From a virus: DNA of 24,987 bases. The notes beneath the pieces are model-generated. The model worked only from the letters and a program-made list of their open reading frames with translations. It did not search any database and was not told where the DNA came from. Of the stretch, positions 17,101 through 23,543 are shown one piece after another. Position numbers and translations under genes: made by a program. Each line of letters opens with the position of its first letter. Positions within the stretch are counted from its first letter, which is position 1. The stretch covers positions 1 to 24,987 of IMG/VR virus record IMGVR_UViG_3300037481_000216. One strand, written 5' to 3'.

Positions 17101-19116
17101 GCCAGGGCTACACCGGGCAGTTTCTCGATTCAAGACGGCCCTGATACGTTCCTGCTGTGGAATCAGGCATTTCGAGACGCAGTGGCGCCGGAGTTTGGTG
17201 TCGCTGAGCTTAACGGAATCACCGCCCGAAAGATCACTGACCTAGCACAGAAGGCGCAGGCTCAAAGCGGAGTCAATCGAAACGAGATTATCCAGCAGAT
17301 GTTTCGCCTCATGGCCCGAGAAGGCGGCGTCAAATTCTCGGATGCACTGCGTGATTACTGGTACGCGGCGGTGCTATCAGGCCTCCGCACGCAGGTAGAC
17401 AACTGGGCGAACGTGTATAACGGATTCCTCAACACAGCCATGTTTGCTGCCATGGCAAAGAAGGATGCTGGTTTTATAGCCTACTCTTCACTCAAGGGAC
17501 TCGCCGAAGGTATCCGCGACTTCTGGCCTATGCTCTGGCATGGTGAGCTTTACCGCTCCGTCAACTTTAACCCTGACCAACCCGGCAGCGCACTCGAAGG
17601 TCTCGGGGAATCTCGCAATCTGTTCGCCAAGGGAATCAGTCAGTTCAAGTACGTTGGTCGCCTCATCAACGCGCTCGATCACATGACTGCGCTGATGTCT
17701 GACTCAACCGCTAAGGCATACGCTTTGCGTAAGTTGTACGGCCCTGAGGTTGCCCGCCAGTATCTTACTCCGTCGCCAGAGGTCGTTGCTGCGGCCCGTG
17801 CTCGTGCGGTTGCTGAAGGCACGCGTCCGGAACTAATCAACAAGCGGACTCGCGAAATTATTCAGGAGAATTTGCCCGTCGAAATCTTGCTGACCGCGAA
17901 AGAGATTCGCGAGATGACCACGTTTACCGAAACACCTCAGGGGTTACTTGGAAGCCTGTACCGTGGTCTGGATCAAGCGGCTCAAGGCAAGACGATCTAC
18001 AAGGTCCTTTCGGGAACGAACTTTCTGCGGTTTGCAGCAAACTCTGCGAACGAGATTCTGAACTTCGCTTTCCCGGTTGCGTTTATTCGGTACTACCAAT
18101 CCGCACCTGGAAGGTCAGAAGGCGAATACGGTCTGAAGTTTTCCGAGTCGCGCCGCGACCTTCTCTTAGCCAAGGCGGCGTTTGGAACTGCGCTTGGCAT
18201 CTATGCTGGCGCCTTATTCCTCGGTGACGATGACAAGGAAGAGGATCGCAACATGGACATCACTGGGTCGTTTAAGTCCCTCGATCCGAACAAGCGCAAG
18301 CAGCTGCTAGCAGAAGGCCGTCAGCCGTATTCCATTCGGTTCGGCAACACCTACGTGTCTTACCGCCAGATGGGATTTGGTGGCGTGCTTGCAACTATCG
18401 GTGAACTCCGCGATCGCCAGTTGTTCTCCCCGGATAAGTGGTCTCAGGAAAACATCCTGGAAAAAATGGCGGATGGCGCCGCAGCTGGAATGTTTATCAT
18501 CAAGGATTCGACCGCGATCTCCGGTCTAACCGAGCTTCTGGGCTTTGCCAACGCCTACAAGTACGACACCGATGAGTTCATCGAGAAATCATTCCCGCGC
18601 TACGTTTCACGTCTGGCCGGGTCCTTGGTGCCCAACATTCTTAAGGAGGTCGATGCCTGGTCTGACCCGTCGATCTTTAAGACTGAGGCTGGAAACCTCG
18701 GCTACGAATACTTCCTTCAGCAAGTACCGTTCGGCCGTCGCGAGATCGGGCCAGGTCCGATCCTCAACGTGCTAGGCGAACCAGTTAAAGTTGAGAGGTA
18801 TCCGTGGAGTCGGTGGGCCAAAGAGCGCGAGGTTGATCCTGCGTGGAGCACCCTAGGATCACTCGCCAGCAAAGGCGTGTTTATGCCGACGCCAGCTATC
18901 ACCGTGAAGGTCAACGAAAACGGCACACGCCGAGAGCTGACCCGCGAAGAAAAATACACCTACCAACAGGCCGTTGGTCAGGGTTACCGCAAGTTTATCG
19001 AGCAGAATCGGGAGCGGCTGCTAGCTCTCCCGCCTGCCCAAGCCTCGGATCTAATCGACAAGAATGCAGATCGCATTCGTCGAAATGCCCGAACAAATCT
19101 GAAAAATTCGTTCTGA
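11161..19116 (+). CDS. Giant polyvalent-type internal virion protein (2651 residues)
   Basis: Probably carried in the virion and ejected with the DNA, like T7 gp16 but about twice as long. Residues 1-60 are helical. Residues 150-345 hold Gly/Ala-rich, membrane-like helices (GALLAGPVGAGALYGLSAGE; FIGAATGGLVGGAIG). Pro/Ala linkers lie near 406-457, 566-584 and 759-784. Residues 1141-1210 and 1600-1665 are two related helical modules. Residues about 1261-1490 form a globular domain with GWYRKSAEALIGVFGVDAPR, LAGLSPQTSVEDNLINAL, SGPKVNSFMLNLRG and DAWMANFALVDQ; it recalls a domain I associate with phage polyvalent proteins (DUF7178-like). Residues 2065-2651 resemble the C-terminal module of large phage ejection proteins, with a hydrophobic helix at about 2338-2355 and a late NVLGEPVKVERYPWSRW motif. 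No lysozyme or polymerase motif is seen. The ATG at 11161 has no Shine-Dalgarno. Confidence 0.75.
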   Translation: MAIEIDFGRELGRLAFPDDITDEQAQSYVRENYQAIRQGLLGQRQEELAAETESQEAAKYRAGDYGTLETIGGVVAELPKAVTEGFGGAMKGAERLSGMVPARQFNPFTGQIGAQIQPSFEPGQGDLSKAGQAVQEFGRETFPSLPGVQESIPAQIAGGVGSTLSVLPGALLAGPVGAGALYGLSAGEAGAEDARKVINRRIAERLAAGDSQGAEDLQSQASQLESQAFLLNAAIGGVSEGVLGVAGKIRFGKSNIGGVGARLAERMIPKAASLRTQNMIRGGVEGVVTEGLQESLEQSMGNMAAKVTYEPERGIMDGVAQAGFIGAATGGLVGGAIGSKRNPNLAKANAIAEATGADPANPLPRSTATVSGLQDGPQSMGPIDIEPEITPEDVMRMSQEAGIPMPAEEVAPVPAPVVAPVPAPQAVVTPAPAPTPVTPAPAAAPVTPAAATVDAETGLRSDEQDELDQLITAEDAGLLSEDDALTLAAYRARLGGVEPAAIQTQPTISSAVQEQGPSEGVLRAEEQQPPIKVGLRQVDQGGRPAESSGAEVQVTPQEVRQVKAAVVVAPAPVAAKPAAKPAEELTEKQYYDQRVKEIADANSIGQSEVRDLFSQEDANLEYWQLIQKAAESGKQFKSQTLDRLPQARVEFLRRNFPQSIPQGYFYPGVVKTIAPAPTYTPARINKLLQSLKARATAVGKGLYEIKKLAPGQRLVLRDSYGRLQETDQFLLREKSEVTGNVYDEGFILRDKQEYAAGQAPRQAPTPAPVTPAPVAPTPAPATSSDVLDQMTLWRRKKPSPLKRAYGLNPTPEQAASHKKQVAAWEKEYRRLGKLYKTLEQEKAQRATKVRPASPNEQVQPPAAAGAPMQEGIDNIKFVSEPVAQARGGGMDAKDAKAKLVQQLERAVAAAPDASDPNPRVPKVTIEIPGDGTYTVSNTKQALNQVLAKAQKLNTSTAKGPVRAPAAARKPERANEMLMRMAKQAVQVYGKNAAAKLREQAANPDLELTDAQRNDLRVIADMITPVVAEPTEAELQAAEEARLAQAEQEIDAGPIGQAKQKLEDEGSDMKKSQVKAMARKLEKAGVIDDSELDDEGRDTEVDELVGQLLERIEEARDNAIQEREQELADEAKVEKVAPKPAPISKVAQIISKLENLKVDTGGTFDAVLGIPALIWNGALITAQNALRAGKAVTEAIDAAIEYIRTSLNEKQAARVNLDAVREQFETDLVLGRSVSEIINDGKLSGYKQKARHLMPEERRKLRSDTKKTFVKLFNELPPVSEFAAAALGGAVKRGWYRKSAEALIGVFGVDAPRFAALLAGLSPQTSVEDNLINALNVWKNWNLAGRPTDRAAIISVMGRSVQGNKGEKSILPAWADNSVRALSSEDPTSITLSGPKVNSFMLNLRGVVNEVTNDAWMANFALVDQNMFSGGLNVTGTDPGKGPGYLAMAAKVRATAEYLTELTGDQWTPAEVQETVWSWAKTLYELQGRRGETRNAVEILKAGDLTEEAIAGTPDFATLLADGEYRRILAEAGYGNQIEEIARRSAELRGTQRPVSASQAAAAASQTLRNAEERAARRLVQLRKQRIAKAEAERNQRPDRVEAILKKVIAATDPKGKVFEAVAGLSNFVVFQATKIALRIYQATKSWVAARNAGMDYIKSHVQLSNEEETAANFEEHIKAFPNQEIPAGTPERPQPPSPDVRVPSRGLFLGDISTDTDENWASEAKKWVDFFKGNLERAFQLALTADIDNAFKEYILGEIIQRNQLDIARAKNDVEVLRALNLETRLADSKKSLGAVTAKAMAARNLSNERFWWAQPAMILRNLIRKRQDELIPFSKIESEQVRKWLSESGREAVNQIREAMKKADAVFAREFRKIKQVPGEADGPPIEIKWQDILTQALDTQGSVRQKMLQVILADPRLRNLSPAGIAEITNLLTKAWETKRNQIFRAEFQKKVPLPNVKPDVREKLLRSLPRILKYANIARATPGSFSIQDGPDTFLLWNQAFRDAVAPEFGVAELNGITARKITDLAQKAQAQSGVNRNEIIQQMFRLMAREGGVKFSDALRDYWYAAVLSGLRTQVDNWANVYNGFLNTAMFAAMAKKDAGFIAYSSLKGLAEGIRDFWPMLWHGELYRSVNFNPDQPGSALEGLGESRNLFAKGISQFKYVGRLINALDHMTALMSDSTAKAYALRKLYGPEVARQYLTPSPEVVAAARARAVAEGTRPELINKRTREIIQENLPVEILLTAKEIREMTTFTETPQGLLGSLYRGLDQAAQGKTIYKVLSGTNFLRFAANSANEILNFAFPVAFIRYYQSAPGRSEGEYGLKFSESRRDLLLAKAAFGTALGIYAGALFLGDDDKEEDRNMDITGSFKSLDPNKRKQLLAEGRQPYSIRFGNTYVSYRQMGFGGVLATIGELRDRQLFSPDKWSQENILEKMADGAAAGMFIIKDSTAISGLTELLGFANAYKYDTDEFIEKSFPRYVSRLAGSLVPNILKEVDAWSDPSIFKTEAGNLGYEYFLQQVPFGRREIGPGPILNVLGEPVKVERYPWSRWAKEREVDPAWSTLGSLASKGVFMPTPAITVKVNENGTRRELTREEKYTYQQAVGQGYRKFIEQNRERLLALPPAQASDLIDKNADRIRRNARTNLKNSF
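12376..12530 (+). repeat. Pro/Ala low-complexity linker in the giant protein
   Basis: It encodes repeated Pro-Ala-Pro and Thr-Pro-Ala units (PVPAPVVAPVPAP and on). Similar linkers recur at 12856-12912, where GCGGCCAAGCCT is repeated in tandem (AKPAAKP), and at 13435-13510. They separate folded segments and are probably extended spacers that let the protein thread through the tail. Confidence 0.8.
14581..14790 (+). repeat. Helical module, copy 1, of the giant protein
   Basis: Residues about 1141-1210: IISKLENLKVDTGGTFDAVL, then IPALIWNGALITAQNALRAG, then AVTEAIDAAIEYIRTSLNE. It matches copy 2 at 15958-16155 in the order helix, Gly-x-(T/V)-F-(D/E)-A-V turn, hydrophobic helix and D-Y/E-Y-I-(R/K)-(T/S) ending. 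The two flank the DUF7178-like domain. Confidence 0.65.
15958..16155 (+). repeat. Helical module, copy 2, of the giant protein
   Basis: Residues about 1600-1665: VEAILKKVIAATDPKGKVFE, then AVAGLSNFVVFQATKIALRI, then WVAARNAGMDYIKSHVQLSN. It is the divergent duplicate of the segment at 14581-14790, followed by an acidic stretch (EEETAANFEEHI). Confidence 0.65.
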
Positions 19117-19160
19117 AATTGCTGGACACCTGACACCACTTGCCATACGTTGACTGACGT
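19117..19160 (+). other. Only intergenic gap between virion and recombination operons
   Basis: This 44-base gap is the longest untranslated stretch on the plus strand before 23815. It contains no convincing Shine-Dalgarno, no terminator hairpin and no clear -35/-10 pair. Its right end forms the left arm of the palindrome at 19144-19163. Confidence 0.6.
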
Positions 19161-19163
19161 ATG
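19144..19163. promoter_or_regulatory. 20-bp palindrome overlapping the recT-like start codon (possible operator or mRNA hairpin)
   Basis: CATACGT and ACGTATG are perfect 7-base inverted arms around a 6-base spacer TGACTG. The ATG in the right arm is the start codon at 19161. It could be a repressor site or an mRNA hairpin that hides the start codon. It is the only candidate control element seen at the head of the fourteen-gene operon. Confidence 0.5.
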
Positions 19164-20147
19164 AGCAACCTACCAGTCGCAACACAGCAAGCACAACCTC
19201 TCAGCGCCTTCTCTTCGGAGGGGGCGTTCGTCTCCGTCCAACGCATGGCTAAGGCCCTTGCGTCCAGCACACTCGTTCCCGATGTCTACCGGGGCGAGGC
19301 CAACCTCGGCAACTGCATCATCGCGTTGGAGTTATCCCAGCGCATTGGCGCCTCGGTCATGGCTGTCATGCAGTCCATGGTTCCTATCCACGGCAAGCCC
19401 ACGTGGTCTGCCTCGTTCCTGATTGCCACCGTCAACAGCTGCGGCCGCTTCTCTCCGATGCGGTTCCGCTGGGTTGGAAAAGAGGGGACAGATGAGTGGG
19501 GCTGCCGGGCCTACGCGGTTGAGCGCGACTCAAACCTGGAGTTGGTCGGCGCCCTCGTGAATATCAACATGGCGAAGATTGAAGGTTGGTACGGCAAAAC
19601 TGGCTCCAAATGGAAGACCATGCCGGAGCAGATGCTCCAGTACCGGGCCGGCGCTTTCTGGTGCCGCACCTACGCGCCCGAGATCGCACTTGGTATGCAC
19701 ACCTCGGAAGAGGTTCAAGACACGCCTGTCGCCCAGCAGGTGGTTCAGTCCGTCAGCACGACTGTCAGTTCATCCATCGTAGACGTGACGCCGACGCCGG
19801 CCGAACCGAAGCCCCGCAAGAAGAAGGAGGTCGAGGCTATCGCGATCGTGGAGCCTCCAACTGAGACCACTACCCCTGAACCCGCTCCGGAGATCGTCGA
19901 GGTTGCCCCACTCGCACCCGCCCCCGTTCCTGCACCGGAACCCGAATTGGAAACCGTCGAGTCCACCCTGACCGCGATCGGTATTACTTATCCGCAGCTG
20001 GCGAAGCTTGCCGGTGAATTGAGCTGGTGGCCTGAGGCTGACACCTTCCCGATGGCCGTGGACCTGCCGCCCGAGGTCAAGCAGTGGATTATCCGTAACC
20101 GCCGAGGTATCGGTCGTGCAGTCCAGAAGGCTGGGGGTGCGCTGTGA
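19161..20147 (+). CDS. recT: RecT-family single-strand annealing protein
   Basis: Binds single-stranded DNA and anneals complementary strands; partner of the exonuclease encoded just downstream. The 328-residue protein has the RecT-family core in residues 20-185: FVSVQRMAKALASSTLVPDV, then NCIIALELSQRIGASVMAVM, IHGKPTWSASFLIATVN, and the signature SKWKTMPEQMLQYRAGAFW (149-167) before PEIALGMHTSEEV. A Pro-rich linker (about 190-265) leads to a small C-terminal helical domain (266-328: TAIGITYPQLAKLAGELSWW and on). The start ATG lies in a palindrome; no Shine-Dalgarno is seen. Its TGA overlaps the next start as GTGA, so the pair is translationally coupled. The family is firm; the C-terminal extension is unassigned. 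Confidence 0.9.
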   Translation: MSNLPVATQQAQPLSAFSSEGAFVSVQRMAKALASSTLVPDVYRGEANLGNCIIALELSQRIGASVMAVMQSMVPIHGKPTWSASFLIATVNSCGRFSPMRFRWVGKEGTDEWGCRAYAVERDSNLELVGALVNINMAKIEGWYGKTGSKWKTMPEQMLQYRAGAFWCRTYAPEIALGMHTSEEVQDTPVAQQVVQSVSTTVSSSIVDVTPTPAEPKPRKKKEVEAIAIVEPPTETTTPEPAPEIVEVAPLAPAPVPAPEPELETVESTLTAIGITYPQLAKLAGELSWWPEADTFPMAVDLPPEVKQWIIRNRRGIGRAVQKAGGAL

Positions 20148-20941
20148 AGTTAGTCCACCCCATCGACGTACCGCAGTACCGCAGTCACCCGGCGATCAAC
20201 ATCTCCAGCCTCAAGGCGTTTAGCCGGTCGCCAGCGCACGCTCTGGTCGGCTTTGAGGAAGAGCGCGAGCCGTCCGAGGCTATGGCTATCGGCTCCCTGC
20301 TGGACCATAAGGTTCTCGGAACGCCGTACCTCTGGACCACGTCGCCCTACGACGACTTCCGAACCAAGGATGCACGCGCCTGGAGAGACGAGCAGGAAGC
20401 CCGAGGCGTCACGGTGTTTAAACAGGACGCGATCGAGACTGTCGATCACATGGTCAAGTCGCTGTATGCCCATCCGACTGCCTGCGACCTGCTGTTCAAA
20501 AGGCCAGGCCAAGCACAGGTTGGTATCTTCGGTGAGTTTGAGTCCTGCGAGCGCAAAGGCTTGATCGACTGGCTACCTACGGATCTACCAGTCATCGTGG
20601 ACCTCAAGAAGTGCCGGGATGCTAGCAAGGCTGGGTTCCGCCGGCAGATCGGCCAACTCCGCTACGACGTTCAGGCTTCGTACTACCGTGACCTCTACCG
20701 AGATATCACCGGGGAGACCCGCGAGTGGCAGTGGATTTGCGTCGAGGACTTTGCGCCCTTCGCAGTCGCTGTTTACCAGCTGGACCGGGAGTCCTGCGAG
20801 AGAGGTTCTGCCACCTGGCAGGATTGGATTCGGCAGTGGATGGTCTGCGAAGACACCGACAGCTGGCCCGGGTACAACGGCGGCGCCGCCGAAATGATCT
20901 CAAGCCCCAACTGGATTCTCAAAGATGAAACTCTCCCGTGA
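20144..20941 (+). CDS. RecE/exonuclease VIII-like PD-(D/E)XK nuclease
   Basis: Probable double-strand-DNA exonuclease that resects ends to give single strands for the RecT-like protein. The 265 residues show the expected motifs: ISSLKAFSRSPAHAL, GSLLDH with His55, GEFES with Glu131, GLIDWLP with Asp142, VIVDLKKCRDAS with Asp153 and Lys155 of the D-x-K core, and Gln177-x-x-Tyr-Tyr (YDVQASYY). This pattern fits the Cas4/RecE-like PDDEXK group, often called DUF3799 in phages. The start is GTG in a GTGA overlap with recT. The end overlaps the next gene by 17 bases. Length is that of the compact phage forms, shorter than E. coli RecE. Confidence 0.9.
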   Translation: MKLVHPIDVPQYRSHPAINISSLKAFSRSPAHALVGFEEEREPSEAMAIGSLLDHKVLGTPYLWTTSPYDDFRTKDARAWRDEQEARGVTVFKQDAIETVDHMVKSLYAHPTACDLLFKRPGQAQVGIFGEFESCERKGLIDWLPTDLPVIVDLKKCRDASKAGFRRQIGQLRYDVQASYYRDLYRDITGETREWQWICVEDFAPFAVAVYQLDRESCERGSATWQDWIRQWMVCEDTDSWPGYNGGAAEMISSPNWILKDETLP

Positions 20942-21155
20942 AGCCATTGAACGCCTGATGGGCCCTCAGCCCACGATCACAAAAACCGTTGTAGTCGAGA
21001 AAACCAAAGAAGGTTGGAGCCCGATGACCGACAAAGAGAAGTCGAACATCCTGCGGTTCATCAAAGAAAACCCCACGTTTTCCTACAAAGAACTGTCCAA
21101 GAAGTTCGGCCGCGCTCCGAGTGTGATTTGGGTGCTACGTAAGAAAAACCTATGA
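20925..21155 (+). CDS. Small helix-turn-helix protein
   Basis: A 76-residue basic protein. Residues 34-76 (MTDKEKSNILRFIKENPTFS, then YKELSKKFGRAPSVIWVLRK) look like a short helix-turn-helix, with a recognition helix around GRAPSVIWVLRK. The N-terminal third is a linker with VVVEKTKEGW. The ATG at 20925 overlaps the nuclease gene by 17 bases; there is little Shine-Dalgarno. It is probably a phage regulator or DNA-binding accessory of the recombination operon; the target is unknown. Confidence 0.6.
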   Translation: MKLSREAIERLMGPQPTITKTVVVEKTKEGWSPMTDKEKSNILRFIKENPTFSYKELSKKFGRAPSVIWVLRKKNL

Positions 21156-21379
21156 ACTCACTTATCCAAAACGCAGTGGCCCGTGGCTGGATCAGCTTCC
21201 CTCATCCAGCTGCGGTGACATCGCGGATGAACTCGCCGGCATACAATGCCCAACGCGCCTGGAAATTATGGAACGAAGGCCAGAGCCTGGAATACGTGGC
21301 GAAAGCCATTGGAGTTAAGAAGCGGTGCGTGATGGCAATCATCGAAGAGGGGAAATCTAAAGCGAAGGGAATTGAATGA
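21152..21379 (+). CDS. Small protein with a helix-turn-helix-like C-terminus
   Basis: A 75-residue protein coupled to its neighbours by ATGA overlaps on both sides. Residues 27-67 (SPAYNAQRAWKLWNEGQSLE, then YVAKAIGVKKRCVMAIIEEG) have the pattern of a Myb/sigma-like helix-turn-helix: W-x-x-G-x-S-x-x-x-x-A-x-x-I-G-V with a recognition helix. The N-terminus (ARGWISFPHP) is unassigned. It is a likely DNA-binding protein, second of two tandem HTH genes. Confidence 0.55.
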   Translation: MNSLIQNAVARGWISFPHPAAVTSRMNSPAYNAQRAWKLWNEGQSLEYVAKAIGVKKRCVMAIIEEGKSKAKGIE

Positions 21380-21612
21380 CACCCCGTGAATTAGCTAACG
21401 AGCATTCCAGGAAACACAATGCACGGACAACGGACGGAGACAGTGATGCGCCGAAAAAGATCCGCGAGTTACAGGAGCGCATCAAGCAGCTGGAAGAAGC
21501 CCTGGAAGCTGTCGCCAAAGTGATTGGGCCTCCCGGAAAATCGACGTGGGTTTCGGATGATCAACTAAATCGTGCGTGGGAACTCTACATACTCACCAAG
21601 GAGGCGAAATGA
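21376..21612 (+). CDS. Small coiled-coil protein
   Basis: A 78-residue protein. Residues 26-49 (PKKIRELQERIKQLEEALEA) are a heptad coiled coil followed by VAKVIGPPGKSTWVSDDQLN. The start overlaps the upstream stop as ATGA, with GAAGGGA upstream. The last codons (Thr-Lys-Glu-Ala-Lys) contain the Shine-Dalgarno AAGGAGG of the next gene. Function unknown; the coiled coil suggests an oligomer with the two SDTPRTD proteins downstream. Confidence 0.6.
   Translation: MTPRELANEHSRKHNARTTDGDSDAPKKIRELQERIKQLEEALEAVAKVIGPPGKSTWVSDDQLNRAWELYILTKEAK
21598..21604 (+). promoter_or_regulatory. Shine-Dalgarno AAGGAGG for the gene at 21609
   Basis: It lies 4 nt before the ATG at 21609 and inside the previous gene's last codons. 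It fixes the start at MSDTPRTD rather than an upstream in-frame ATG at 21576. The same string and spacing recur at 21921-21927 before 21932. Confidence 0.75.
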
Positions 21613-21935
21613 GCGACACCCCAAGGACAGATGAGCAGATCAACGGCAAGCCATGCAGTCGATTCGGGATACTAGCTGGTGATTCACTGCGTAATGCCGC
21701 AGTTCCATCGGAATTTGCGCGCATACTTGAGCGTGAGATTAACGCAGCCAATGACGACATAAAGCGGCTGGAGGAGGAGAACAACGAACTCCGAGCAGAA
21801 GAGGCTCGTTTGTTGAACACCAATGGAGAACTGGAAAGACGCATCAAGCGACTTATAGATGCCGGTGATGCGATGCTCCCATGGTCTGAGCGTGTAGGTC
21901 AGGAGTTCTGGACCAAAGCCAAGGAGGCGAAATGA
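21609..21935 (+). CDS. SDTPRTD-type coiled-coil protein, copy 1
   Basis: A 108-residue protein starting MSDTPRTDEQINGKPCSRFG. Residues about 35-80 are a coiled coil (FARILEREINAANDDIKRLE, EENNELRAEEARLLNTNGEL). The start has a strong Shine-Dalgarno and an ATGA overlap. It is a paralogue of the gene at 22120 (SDTPRTD, then F-x-x-x-L-E-R-E-(I/L)-N-A-A and IKRLEEEN). Proteins with this opening are frequent in phages and, as far as I know, lack a function. The C-terminus again encodes KEAK over the next Shine-Dalgarno. Confidence 0.7.
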   Translation: MSDTPRTDEQINGKPCSRFGILAGDSLRNAAVPSEFARILEREINAANDDIKRLEEENNELRAEEARLLNTNGELERRIKRLIDAGDAMLPWSERVGQEFWTKAKEAK

Positions 21936-22123
21936 AAGACACTGCGCCTTTTCTGATAATCCCCTGCATCATCTTGGTTACCGTTGCCAGCGGCGTGTCA
22001 AACCTATGCGGACATACGACCGGAATTGATAAGATGAAAGAAGAAGCCATCCTCGCTGGCCATGCAGAATGGGTGGCCGACGCGAGCGGTAAACCACAGT
22101 TCAAATGGAAGGAGTGTAAATGA
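21932..22123 (+). CDS. Small single-helix membrane protein
   Basis: A 63-residue protein. Residues 5-22 (APFLIIPCIILVTVASGV) form one transmembrane helix. A soluble tail carries KEEAILAGHAEWVADASGKP then FKWK, a pattern (A-x-x-A-G-x-x-E-W-x-x-D-x-x-G-x-P-x-F-x-W-K) I recognise from small phage and prophage proteins of unknown role. The start has AAGGAGG at 21921 and an ATGA overlap. A holin would usually be larger or lack this tail; a membrane-anchored exclusion or takeover protein is as likely. Confidence 0.65.
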   Translation: MKDTAPFLIIPCIILVTVASGVSNLCGHTTGIDKMKEEAILAGHAEWVADASGKPQFKWKECK

Positions 22124-22344
22124 GCAACCATCTTGGTGACACCAACAAAATGGTCAGCGACACCCCAAGAACGGATGCTAGGCGCGGTTTTCATGGTTGG
22201 TACACCGCCGTTGATGCTGAGTTTTCTGAAAAACTCGAACGCGAACTGAACGCAGCTCAGCAGCGCATCAAGCGGCTGGAGGAGGAGAACGACGCTCTCC
22301 GCGCTGATCTACTGTTGTGGCAGGAGCAGGAGGTCAAACCGTGA
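22120..22344 (+). CDS. SDTPRTD-type coiled-coil protein, copy 2
   Basis: A 74-residue protein. After an 11-residue extension it has VSDTPRTDARRG, then FSEKLERELNAAQQRIKRLE and EENDALRADLLLW, matching the gene at 21609 but without its C-terminal 30 residues. The ATG at 22120 is preferred because AAGGAG lies 5 nt upstream and it overlaps the upstream stop as ATGA; ATG 22150 would start just before SDTPRTD. It ends in a GTGA overlap. Function unknown. Confidence 0.65.
   Translation: MSNHLGDTNKMVSDTPRTDARRGFHGWYTAVDAEFSEKLERELNAAQQRIKRLEEENDALRADLLLWQEQEVKP
22328..22334 (+). promoter_or_regulatory. Shine-Dalgarno AGGAGGT deciding the GTG start at 22341
   Basis: Six bases separate it from GTG 22341, an optimal distance. 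It rules out the in-frame GTG at 22317 as the start of the next gene. Confidence 0.75.
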
Positions 22345-22583
22345 AAACACTACCCGACGACTTTAGTATTTGCTTCATCTATAAGCATCAACGAAACGGA
22401 GATGTAGTTGTGCTTAACACAGAAGACGCACGTAGAATGGATGCCTCTCCAGCAATGCGGAGAGGTGAGTACAAACACGTTTCGAGCGTCGACCCAATCA
22501 CCATACTGCAACTCATCGTTAATACATCAGGACGACGCAGGAACCAAATCATCAAAGAACTAAGCGAGAAGGAGTGCAAATGA
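22341..22583 (+). CDS. Small unknown protein, paralogue A
   Basis: An 80-residue protein starting with GTG (MKTLPDDFSICFIYKHQRNG). It ends in KHVSSVDPITILQLIVNTSG followed by RRRNQIIKELSEKE. It is a tandem paralogue of the next gene, which has KHVSTINPFAWLEVML and DRNKIIKHLL at the matching place. No domain is recognised; the alpha/beta texture suggests a small globular protein. The GTGA overlap and strong Shine-Dalgarno support it as a real gene. Confidence 0.65.
   Translation: MKTLPDDFSICFIYKHQRNGDVVVLNTEDARRMDASPAMRRGEYKHVSSVDPITILQLIVNTSGRRRNQIIKELSEKECK
22569..22574 (+). promoter_or_regulatory. Shine-Dalgarno AAGGAG for the gene at 22580
   Basis: Five bases before ATG 22580, within the previous coding sequence; it excludes the in-frame GTG at 22574 as start. 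The same AAGGAGTG..AAATGA context precedes 22120, so small blocks were probably duplicated with their start regions. Confidence 0.65.
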
Positions 22584-22780
22584 AAGACACAGTAGCATTC
22601 ATCTACGTCCACGCATTTAACGGACTAGTGCGCGTGGAGAGCTTGGATACCGCTCGCAACATCGATGGTAATCCAGAATGGAAACACGTTAGCACTATCA
22701 ACCCTTTCGCTTGGTTAGAGGTGATGCTTCGAGCTTCGACAAAAGACAGAAACAAAATCATCAAACACCTACTAACATGA
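22580..22780 (+). CDS. Small unknown protein, paralogue B
   Basis: A 66-residue protein (MKDTVAFIYVHAFNGLVRVE; then EWKHVSTINPFAWLEVMLRA and KDRNKIIKHLLT). It matches the upstream gene from AFIY/CFIY to the end, with a shorter middle. The ATGA overlap and AAGGAG support the start. The MKDT opening is also shared with the membrane protein at 21932. Function unknown. Confidence 0.65.
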   Translation: MKDTVAFIYVHAFNGLVRVESLDTARNIDGNPEWKHVSTINPFAWLEVMLRASTKDRNKIIKHLLT

Positions 22781-23319
22781 CCTACTCACAATCCGGTCAA
22801 CTCCCCTACCACCAATACTGTCTCGTCGATGCCTCGTTTATATCCAGTCGCACCGGGTTTATCCCATGCGTCTGGTTCGGTCTGGTCTCCATCCCAGGCA
22901 GGATGTGGGGCTGTACCATCCTGCTGGAATGCGGAGCCGTCTACCGGGAGGTGCCGCCGCACGCGCTAGCATTCCAAGAAAACCCTGAACTCGACTGGCG
23001 CGTAGACCACGCACAGCGCTGGGACTGCTACGGCCGCGAGTTCTCAACCATCGAATACACGTACCTCCGAGGCGTGGGAGTCATCGCTAAGAACTGCGAC
23101 GGAGAGTCCTTTGGAGAATACCTCTTCACCGCCGCACCCATCGACGACGGGTTCAGCCGTTACCCTGAGCAAGCTAAGGAGTTCTGCTTCATCAAGCTGA
23201 ACAACGGCCGCCTTACCATCCAACCCACCGACAAAGTCCTATTCACTGACGACTCTTTCGCCACTCCTGAGTGGCCGACGGATCTTAAAACCACCACTGA
23301 AATCTACAGCTGCGAATGA
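22777..23319 (+). CDS. Unknown 180-residue protein, conserved-looking
   Basis: It starts at ATG 22777 in an ATGA overlap; an upstream in-frame TTG/GTG would run back through the previous gene and is less likely. The protein is rich in aromatic and cysteine residues: QYCLVDASFISSRTGFIPCV, then WFGLVSIPGRMWGCTILLEC, GAVYREVPPHALAF, and QRWDCYGREFSTIEYTYLRG. The last third is strand-like (KEFCFIKLNNGRLTIQPTDK). Motifs such as PPHALAF and QRWDCYGREF look strongly constrained, as in an enzyme or a specific host-protein binder. I do not recognise the family. It is the largest unknown in the early operon. Confidence 0.65.
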   Translation: MTYSQSGQLPYHQYCLVDASFISSRTGFIPCVWFGLVSIPGRMWGCTILLECGAVYREVPPHALAFQENPELDWRVDHAQRWDCYGREFSTIEYTYLRGVGVIAKNCDGESFGEYLFTAAPIDDGFSRYPEQAKEFCFIKLNNGRLTIQPTDKVLFTDDSFATPEWPTDLKTTTEIYSCE

Positions 23320-23543
23320 AACTCATCGACCGAATCAAAAAATTCCTTGGATTCAAATCCGGAGTCGGACGTCCTAGGATTTCTCAATCCAAGCAGGACG
23401 CCATCAAATCCGCGCCAATCGAAGTGACGGATGCCGATCTAGCACGCCTGTTTAATCTCTCCTACACCACCATTCAGAGATACCGAAACGCCAATGGAAG
23501 ACCGCGCAGAAAAATTCGCTCAGATCGCAAGAGAACTCCATGA
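23316..23543 (+). CDS. Small HTH protein with GRPR segments
   Basis: A 75-residue, very basic protein. Residues 36-60 (IEVTDADLARLFNLSYTTIQ, RYRNAN) form a helix-turn-helix: A-R-L-F-N-L-S-Y-T-T-I-Q-R-Y-R. Two GRPR motifs flank it (GVGRPRISQ and ANGRPRRKI), AT-hook-like minor-groove anchors. It overlaps the upstream gene as ATGA and its 3' end overlaps the next gene by 50 bases in another frame. It is likely a phage transcription regulator. Confidence 0.65.
   Translation: MKLIDRIKKFLGFKSGVGRPRISQSKQDAIKSAPIEVTDADLARLFNLSYTTIQRYRNANGRPRRKIRSDRKRTP

Follow-up and report, generated by a model that had tools for sequence, protein, structure and literature searches.

Read-through RNA that conceals a start codon is known from the transposase genes of IS10 and IS200, where such RNA folds and hides the start, whereas transcripts from the element's own promoter do not include the 5' arm of the hairpin. 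In IS10 the arms of this hairpin come from the end of the element. The lambda cI message made from PRM represents a leaderless phage message, and we know of no read-through hairpin at its start. Passages of two publications on phage T4 (PMC3014915, PMC2988022) describe how longer transcripts of gene e and I-TevI pair the initiation region, with the gene's own promoter located in the 5' strand, so that transcripts without the 5' part escape this pairing; the same passages name soc and 49 alongside e and I-TevI as cases of read-through hairpins.

The element analyzed here is located at the start of a recT-like gene in a virus record of 24,987 bases, the whole of which is referred to below as the window. 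As in the T4 passages on e and I-TevI, the recT start region is predicted to be paired in transcripts derived from upstream (median AUG pairing 1.00 among 38 start regions), while the recT promoter is placed, by its sequence, such that its own RNA would lack the 5' arm. Unlike the T4 genes, which have a T4 late promoter (given in those passages as TATAAATA) and a Shine-Dalgarno sequence near the start, recT has sigma70-like boxes and no Shine-Dalgarno sequence. Timing is also different: in T4, late genes are shielded from early RNA, whereas here a recombination gene, presumably an early one, lies behind structural genes. Should late RNA indeed be silenced at this locus, it would mirror T4 in time, its recombination genes being shielded from late RNA. 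The recT element would work like the T4 promoter-in-hairpin cases but is not one of them, since it differs in the timing of its gene, in the kind of promoter and in having no Shine-Dalgarno sequence. The IS10 and IS200 genes share the same hiding logic with recT but are transposases of mobile elements, while lambda cI made from PRM resembles recT in that the RNA starts (by prediction in recT) at or next to the AUG and lacks a Shine-Dalgarno sequence. A literature search on leaderless phage or recT messages and start-hiding hairpins returned no description of the recT element in the titles and abstract openings of the matches listed. Based on the analyses presented below, the palindrome at the recT start is probably the central part of a promoter-in-hairpin element by which the recombination operon is shielded from read-through transcription.

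Sequence collections and samples

The phage collection contained only two 90-nt DNA matches to the window, and its RecT matches (127 records) were all below 60% identity, so that this collection yielded no close relative. The genome collection yielded 12 loci, two of which, L106 and L107, share this start region; both are derived from metagenome bins, and their host label may be a product of misbinning. L019, with only 10 nt of upstream sequence, was left out of all start analyses. The close group comprises 52 start regions including that of the window, 38 of them distinct. The column conservation profile is based on 36 of these 38 (L032 and L043, being one base shorter, were omitted), and the hand-picked covariation alignment, A1, on 28, omitting L048, L049, L107 and near-copies, while the recT tree holds 37 start regions, excluding the short L072. 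Forty distant loci (L051-L071, L073-L081 and L108-L117) represent RecT relatives with other start regions.

The recT locus and its palindrome

The features of the locus are listed in Table 1. The 20-bp palindrome put forward in the original prediction is present as claimed, with CATACGT (19144-19150) and ACGTATG (19157-19163) on either side of TGACTG (19151-19156), and the recT ATG indeed forms its last three bases (19161-19163). The giant ORF upstream is separated from this ATG by a gap of 44 nt, counted from its stop codon, and is located on the same strand; it returned a single Pfam match, to DUF7178 (E 3e-7). Its counterparts in three related records measure 3198-3300 aa, and the giant ORF adjoins the recombination genes on their upstream side. 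Matches to tail-type proteins were found farther upstream, also on the strand of recT. The recT product itself matches Pfam RecT with an E value of 1.3e-4, slightly below the gathering score, and also matched phage proteins annotated as RecT. The operon had been described as fourteen coupled genes: the first 12 ORFs (19161-23543) do overlap head to tail, while the next two follow only after gaps of 62 and 310 nt. Three ORFs of the recT run (starting at 20925, 21152 and 23316) are HTH-like, all by weak Pfam matches under the cut-off.

Table 1. Positions of the features of the recT start region, its flanking genes and the second promoter
Feature	Position	Strand	Basis or remark
Giant-protein ORF, 2651 aa	11161..19116	+	Presumed origin of read-through RNA
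Predicted -35 box TGGACA	19123..19128	+	Sequence; T[TGA]GAC[AG] at the same place in 52/52 start regions
Hairpin 5' arm TTGCCATACGTT	19140..19151	+	Predicted fold; ends at last base of -10 box
20-bp palindrome	19144..19163	none	Read from sequence and pattern search
Predicted -10 box TACGTT (TAnnnT)	19146..19151	+	17 nt past -35 box, in left part of palindrome
Hairpin 3' arm GACGTATG, bulged A (19164), GCAA	19156..19168	+	Predicted fold; contains recT start codon
Predicted transcription start	19158..19161	+	From -10 spacing; 0-3 nt before ATG
recT-like single-strand annealing protein gene, 328 aa	19161..20147	+	Pfam RecT
DUF3799 PDDEXK nuclease-like gene	20144..20941	+	Pfam E 9e-25; overlaps recT stop
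Ten more overlapping ORFs of the recT run	20925..23543	+	Mechanical ORFs
Second leaderless-type promoter	G013:37636-37673	-	Precedes 128-aa gene; also L127-L130, L132, L136, L137

A search for terminator-like stems detected none on the + strand in the gap between the giant gene and recT, and the six terminator-like sites in the region scanned compare with 5.7 in shuffles. A terminator-like stem of 13 pairs with a 4-nt loop lies on the - strand (23848-23819), past the point where the run of overlapping genes ends. At E values up to 1, nothing in Rfam matched positions 18900-20300.

Taken simply as an inverted repeat, the palindrome is not significant and falls within chance expectation: perfect inverted repeats of 7 bp with a loop of 3-8 number 15 in the window, overlapping ones included, while 30 dinucleotide shuffles gave 10.1 (sd 3.7). 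The pattern CATACGT-N6-ACGTATG with up to three mismatches has a single match in the whole window, i.e., the recT site, and at least one match in 42 of 100 shuffles. What sets the palindrome apart is its fold and conservation, and the features that it overlaps, rather than its arms alone. The exact 20-mer was found in 24 IMG/VR contigs, all 24 of which are among the contigs with a recT start region that were examined, while perfect 7-bp arms are present in 24 of the 38 distinct start regions and mismatched in the others.

A predicted promoter for a leaderless message

The palindrome had been regarded as the only control-like element before the operon, and this overlooked a sigma70-type promoter whose -10 box is located in the left arm. 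The layout in the window (TGGACA, 17 nt, TACGTT, 9 nt, recT ATG) follows the pattern T[TGA]GAC[AG], 16-17 nt, TAnnnT, 8-9 nt, ATG, which was composed after the sequences had been inspected. In the close group it matches all 52 start regions, the window included, and 38 of 38 distinct ones; of the 40 recT loci that are more distant, none contains it in the 260 nt preceding the match. A stricter pattern, TTGACR-N16-18-TANNNT-N5-9-RTG, occurs at 15 places in 14 of 22 related records, with 14 of these places at recT, compared to four matches in the reversed control; in the eight records without a match to it, the -35 box reads TGGACA or TAGACA.

No Shine-Dalgarno-like tetramer was found at -20 to -1 in 37 of the 38 distinct start regions, the exception being L049, in which such a tetramer lies just 2 nt from the ATG. 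Since the ATG follows 9 nt past the -10 box (8-9 nt in relatives) and lacks a Shine-Dalgarno sequence, the recT mRNA made from its own promoter should, by its sequence, be leaderless or nearly so, starting at the AUG or at most about 3 nt from it. For a start that is leaderless in the strict sense, a gap of 9 nt is long, which counts against it. The segment with the -35 and -10 boxes (19117-19160 in the window, and its equivalents in L002-L050) varies among relatives in a way that does not follow the recT tree, suggesting that recombination break points are located at this promoter.

Predicted folding of the recT start

In read-through RNA, the arms of the palindrome are predicted to extend to a 12-bp stem with the AUG inside, i.e., TTGCCATACGTT-GACT-GACGTATG-A-GCAA (19140-19168). 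This hairpin has a predicted energy of -13.4 kcal/mol and a z of -5.4, with 0 of 200 shuffles being equally stable. Among the 6,237 stretches of 44 nt in the window (60 shuffles each), z is lowest (-6.2) for the one that begins at 19129 and lies over the hairpin, while the start-centred stretch (-26 to +18) ranks 7th by z (-4.7) and 680th by raw energy. The spacer TTGC is conserved, belongs to no promoter element and can pair with the GCAA of codons 2-3. Because the last base of the 5' arm is also that of the -10 box, RNA from recT's own promoter should lack this arm, and the hairpin is thus expected in read-through RNA only.

Among the 38 distinct start regions, the median z was -2.5 and 27 were below -2, these counts being drawn from related sequences and therefore not independent; weaker values than -1.5 were obtained for L009, L018, L025, L031, L032 and L040. 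A control set of 121 other ATG starts from 18 of these loci had a mean z of -0.10 (sd 1.11), compared to -2.78 for 17 recT starts. One of the control starts, that of an ORF at position 1479 of L038, is itself predicted to fold very stably (z -5.3, AUG paired 0.99). An initial set of ten short folds (42-45 nt) gave z below -2 in the window, L043, L042, L026 and L011 and not in L006, L032, L048, L049 and L107; the ends of these stretches cut stems in several cases and that of L107 missed the start, and they were superseded by ATG-anchored stretches.

The predicted pairing of the AUG depends on where the RNA begins, its median among the 38 start regions being 1.00 in read-through RNA, 0.49 in RNA starting at -3 and 0.21 in leaderless RNA, and it was higher in read-through than in leaderless RNA in 37 of the 38. 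The cost of opening positions -15 to +12 exceeds the median of the 121 other starts in 37 of 38 start regions, and their 95th percentile in only seven. The median opening energy was 14.8 kcal/mol in the close group against 5.8 in distant RecT loci, many of which are poorer in G+C; 29 of the 40 distant loci were tried for this control and 28 yielded a start.

A second promoter of the leaderless type, TTGACR-N17-NANNNT-N6-GTG, provides a contrast. It lies upstream of a small gene in seven of the 11 loci fetched (L130 and L132 being identical there), and none was noticed on reading L131 and L133-L135; the pattern was composed after the sequences had been seen. The start regions behind it fold no better than shuffles in the seven loci (z -0.85 to +0.27), and the recT fold is therefore no by-product of leaderless-type promoters. 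Such promoters thus recur in this phage group, and, as far as folding predictions go, the hairpin is located at recT, behind the structural block, and not at the second start.

Alternative pairings and covariation

Eleven of the 37 start regions in the recT tree exhibit a different pairing, designated pairing B, in which the inner arm has changed and the dyad is broken. In these, a different and longer stem is predicted to be possible (GTCAGTTGCC/GGTGACTGAC type), e.g., at -21.3 kcal/mol in L042, -21.7 in L011 and -17.3 in L026, and the AUG is located at the stem end, where it is often only partly paired (0.27-0.95; L050 0.27, L036 0.32, L039 0.40). In L048 and L107, an upstream CATACGG pairs with CCGTATG, while in L049 the start region is paired with downstream codons. 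By these other pairings a start-codon hairpin is kept, with z of -4.35 in L048, -4.17 in L107 and -3.68 in L049 and 0 of 200 shuffles equally stable in each case; for a tighter L049 stretch, 8 of 500 shuffles were equally stable. When the recT tree is rooted on L049, L048 and L107 branch next, and four switches between pairings A and B are required on this tree. This turnover of pairings is the best argument, albeit one from prediction, that a structure and not one particular sequence is being kept.

Compensatory changes in relatives, a check suggested along with the original prediction, gave a weak signal only. Covariation did not exceed that of shuffles, with changes on both sides in one of 12 pairs for pairing A and one of 14 for pairing B, and the RNAalifold covariation term was about 0. 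Covariation was consequently rejected as proof of the RNA fold. The hairpin arms have hardly any freedom to vary, since the -10 box and codons 1-3 hold them fixed.

Alternative explanations

The palindrome had originally been proposed to act either as a start-hiding hairpin, a reading that gained support from the folding statistics across relatives, or as an operator, which received less. In the latter case, a dimeric protein from phage or host, acting as repressor or activator, would bind CATACG-N8-CGTATG in the DNA, which spans the -10 box and start point, and so control the recT promoter. We consider this unlikely, even though a perfect 7-bp dyad is present at this position, as part of the exact 20-mer in 24 contigs and with perfect arms in 24 of 38 distinct start regions, and even though the conservation blocks in the column profile are, in our reading, mirrored about the dyad centre. 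The CATAC copies of L049 and L107, which resemble half-sites and are spaced by 10 bp, also agree with an operator. These tandem 10-bp units lie between the -35 box and the start codon (L049 5950-5990; L107 about 255-293) and may be phased half-sites or a duplication. Against binding of this kind, a search of 22 related records for CATACG-N8-CGTATG with up to two mismatches found no second good copy: sites at recT had 0-2 mismatches and those elsewhere always two, with three records unmatched (L049, as well as L032 and L043, whose spacing is shorter by one base), and the dyad is broken in the 11 pairing-B start regions of the 37 in the tree. Furthermore, the three HTH-like proteins encoded in the window were undetected in the about 7 kb of downstream sequence of L040, which retains a perfect palindrome, by tblastn at E 1e-4, a threshold that very divergent copies could escape, and the first two were undetected in L047, whose about 3.4 kb of downstream sequence is too short for the third. 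The extended arms contain a bulged A and G-U pairs, and RNA therefore fits them better than a DNA dyad does. The operator and hairpin readings are mutually compatible, and the palindrome may still be bound by a protein of the host or by a phage regulator that escaped notice.

Somewhat less probable still is that only a promoter is conserved, the left arm being kept as -10 box and the right one as start region and codon, with the palindrome arising as a by-product of CAT/ATG and the self-complementary ACGT. The abundance of bare 7-bp repeats in the window (15 against 10.1 expected), covariation that does not rise above shuffles and an opening cost mostly within the range of other starts are all consistent with this explanation. 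It is at odds with the recT folding z, which lies far below that of other starts, with the different hairpins of L048, L107 and L049, with the second promoter of the same type that has no such fold, and with the conservation of the TTGC spacer, for which there is no promoter reason. A site of RNA processing, e.g., by RNase III, that splits the late from the recombination message is very improbable: a 12-bp stem between two genes of the same strand in a possible read-through RNA would suit it, but it leaves both the AUG in the stem and the internal promoter unexplained, and a stem of 12 bp is short for RNase III.

Proposed mechanism and its significance

In the favored reading, that of a promoter-in-hairpin element, transcripts entering from the upstream giant gene would carry both arms and fold, burying the recT AUG, such that recT would be poorly translated from read-through RNA. 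RNA from the recT promoter would begin at the AUG or within about 3 nt of it, leaving the whole 5' arm upstream of the start point; this message would be leaderless or nearly so, with its AUG mostly unfolded and hence translatable. The promoter-like boxes and their spacing, the missing Shine-Dalgarno sequence, the conservation, and a predicted fold stronger than that of controls are drawn from the sequences, from which we infer promoter use, the RNA start point, the existence of read-through RNA and the drop in translation caused by the hairpin.

A broader proposal is put forward more tentatively, as a possibility that we hold slightly more doubtful than not: in this uncultured phage lineage, late read-through RNA may be silenced for the recombination operon by a hairpin that holds the operon's own promoter and that has been rebuilt several times from different pairings with its function kept, while the message that escapes is leaderless. 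The natural variants, i.e., pairings A and B and those of L048, L107 and L049, can be used to ask whether structure over sequence is selected. If the proposal is true, downstream genes would obtain their own timing by means of about 45 bp, without a terminator or a regulator protein, and the hairpin principle of T4 would be extended to leaderless messages and to recombination genes located behind structural genes.
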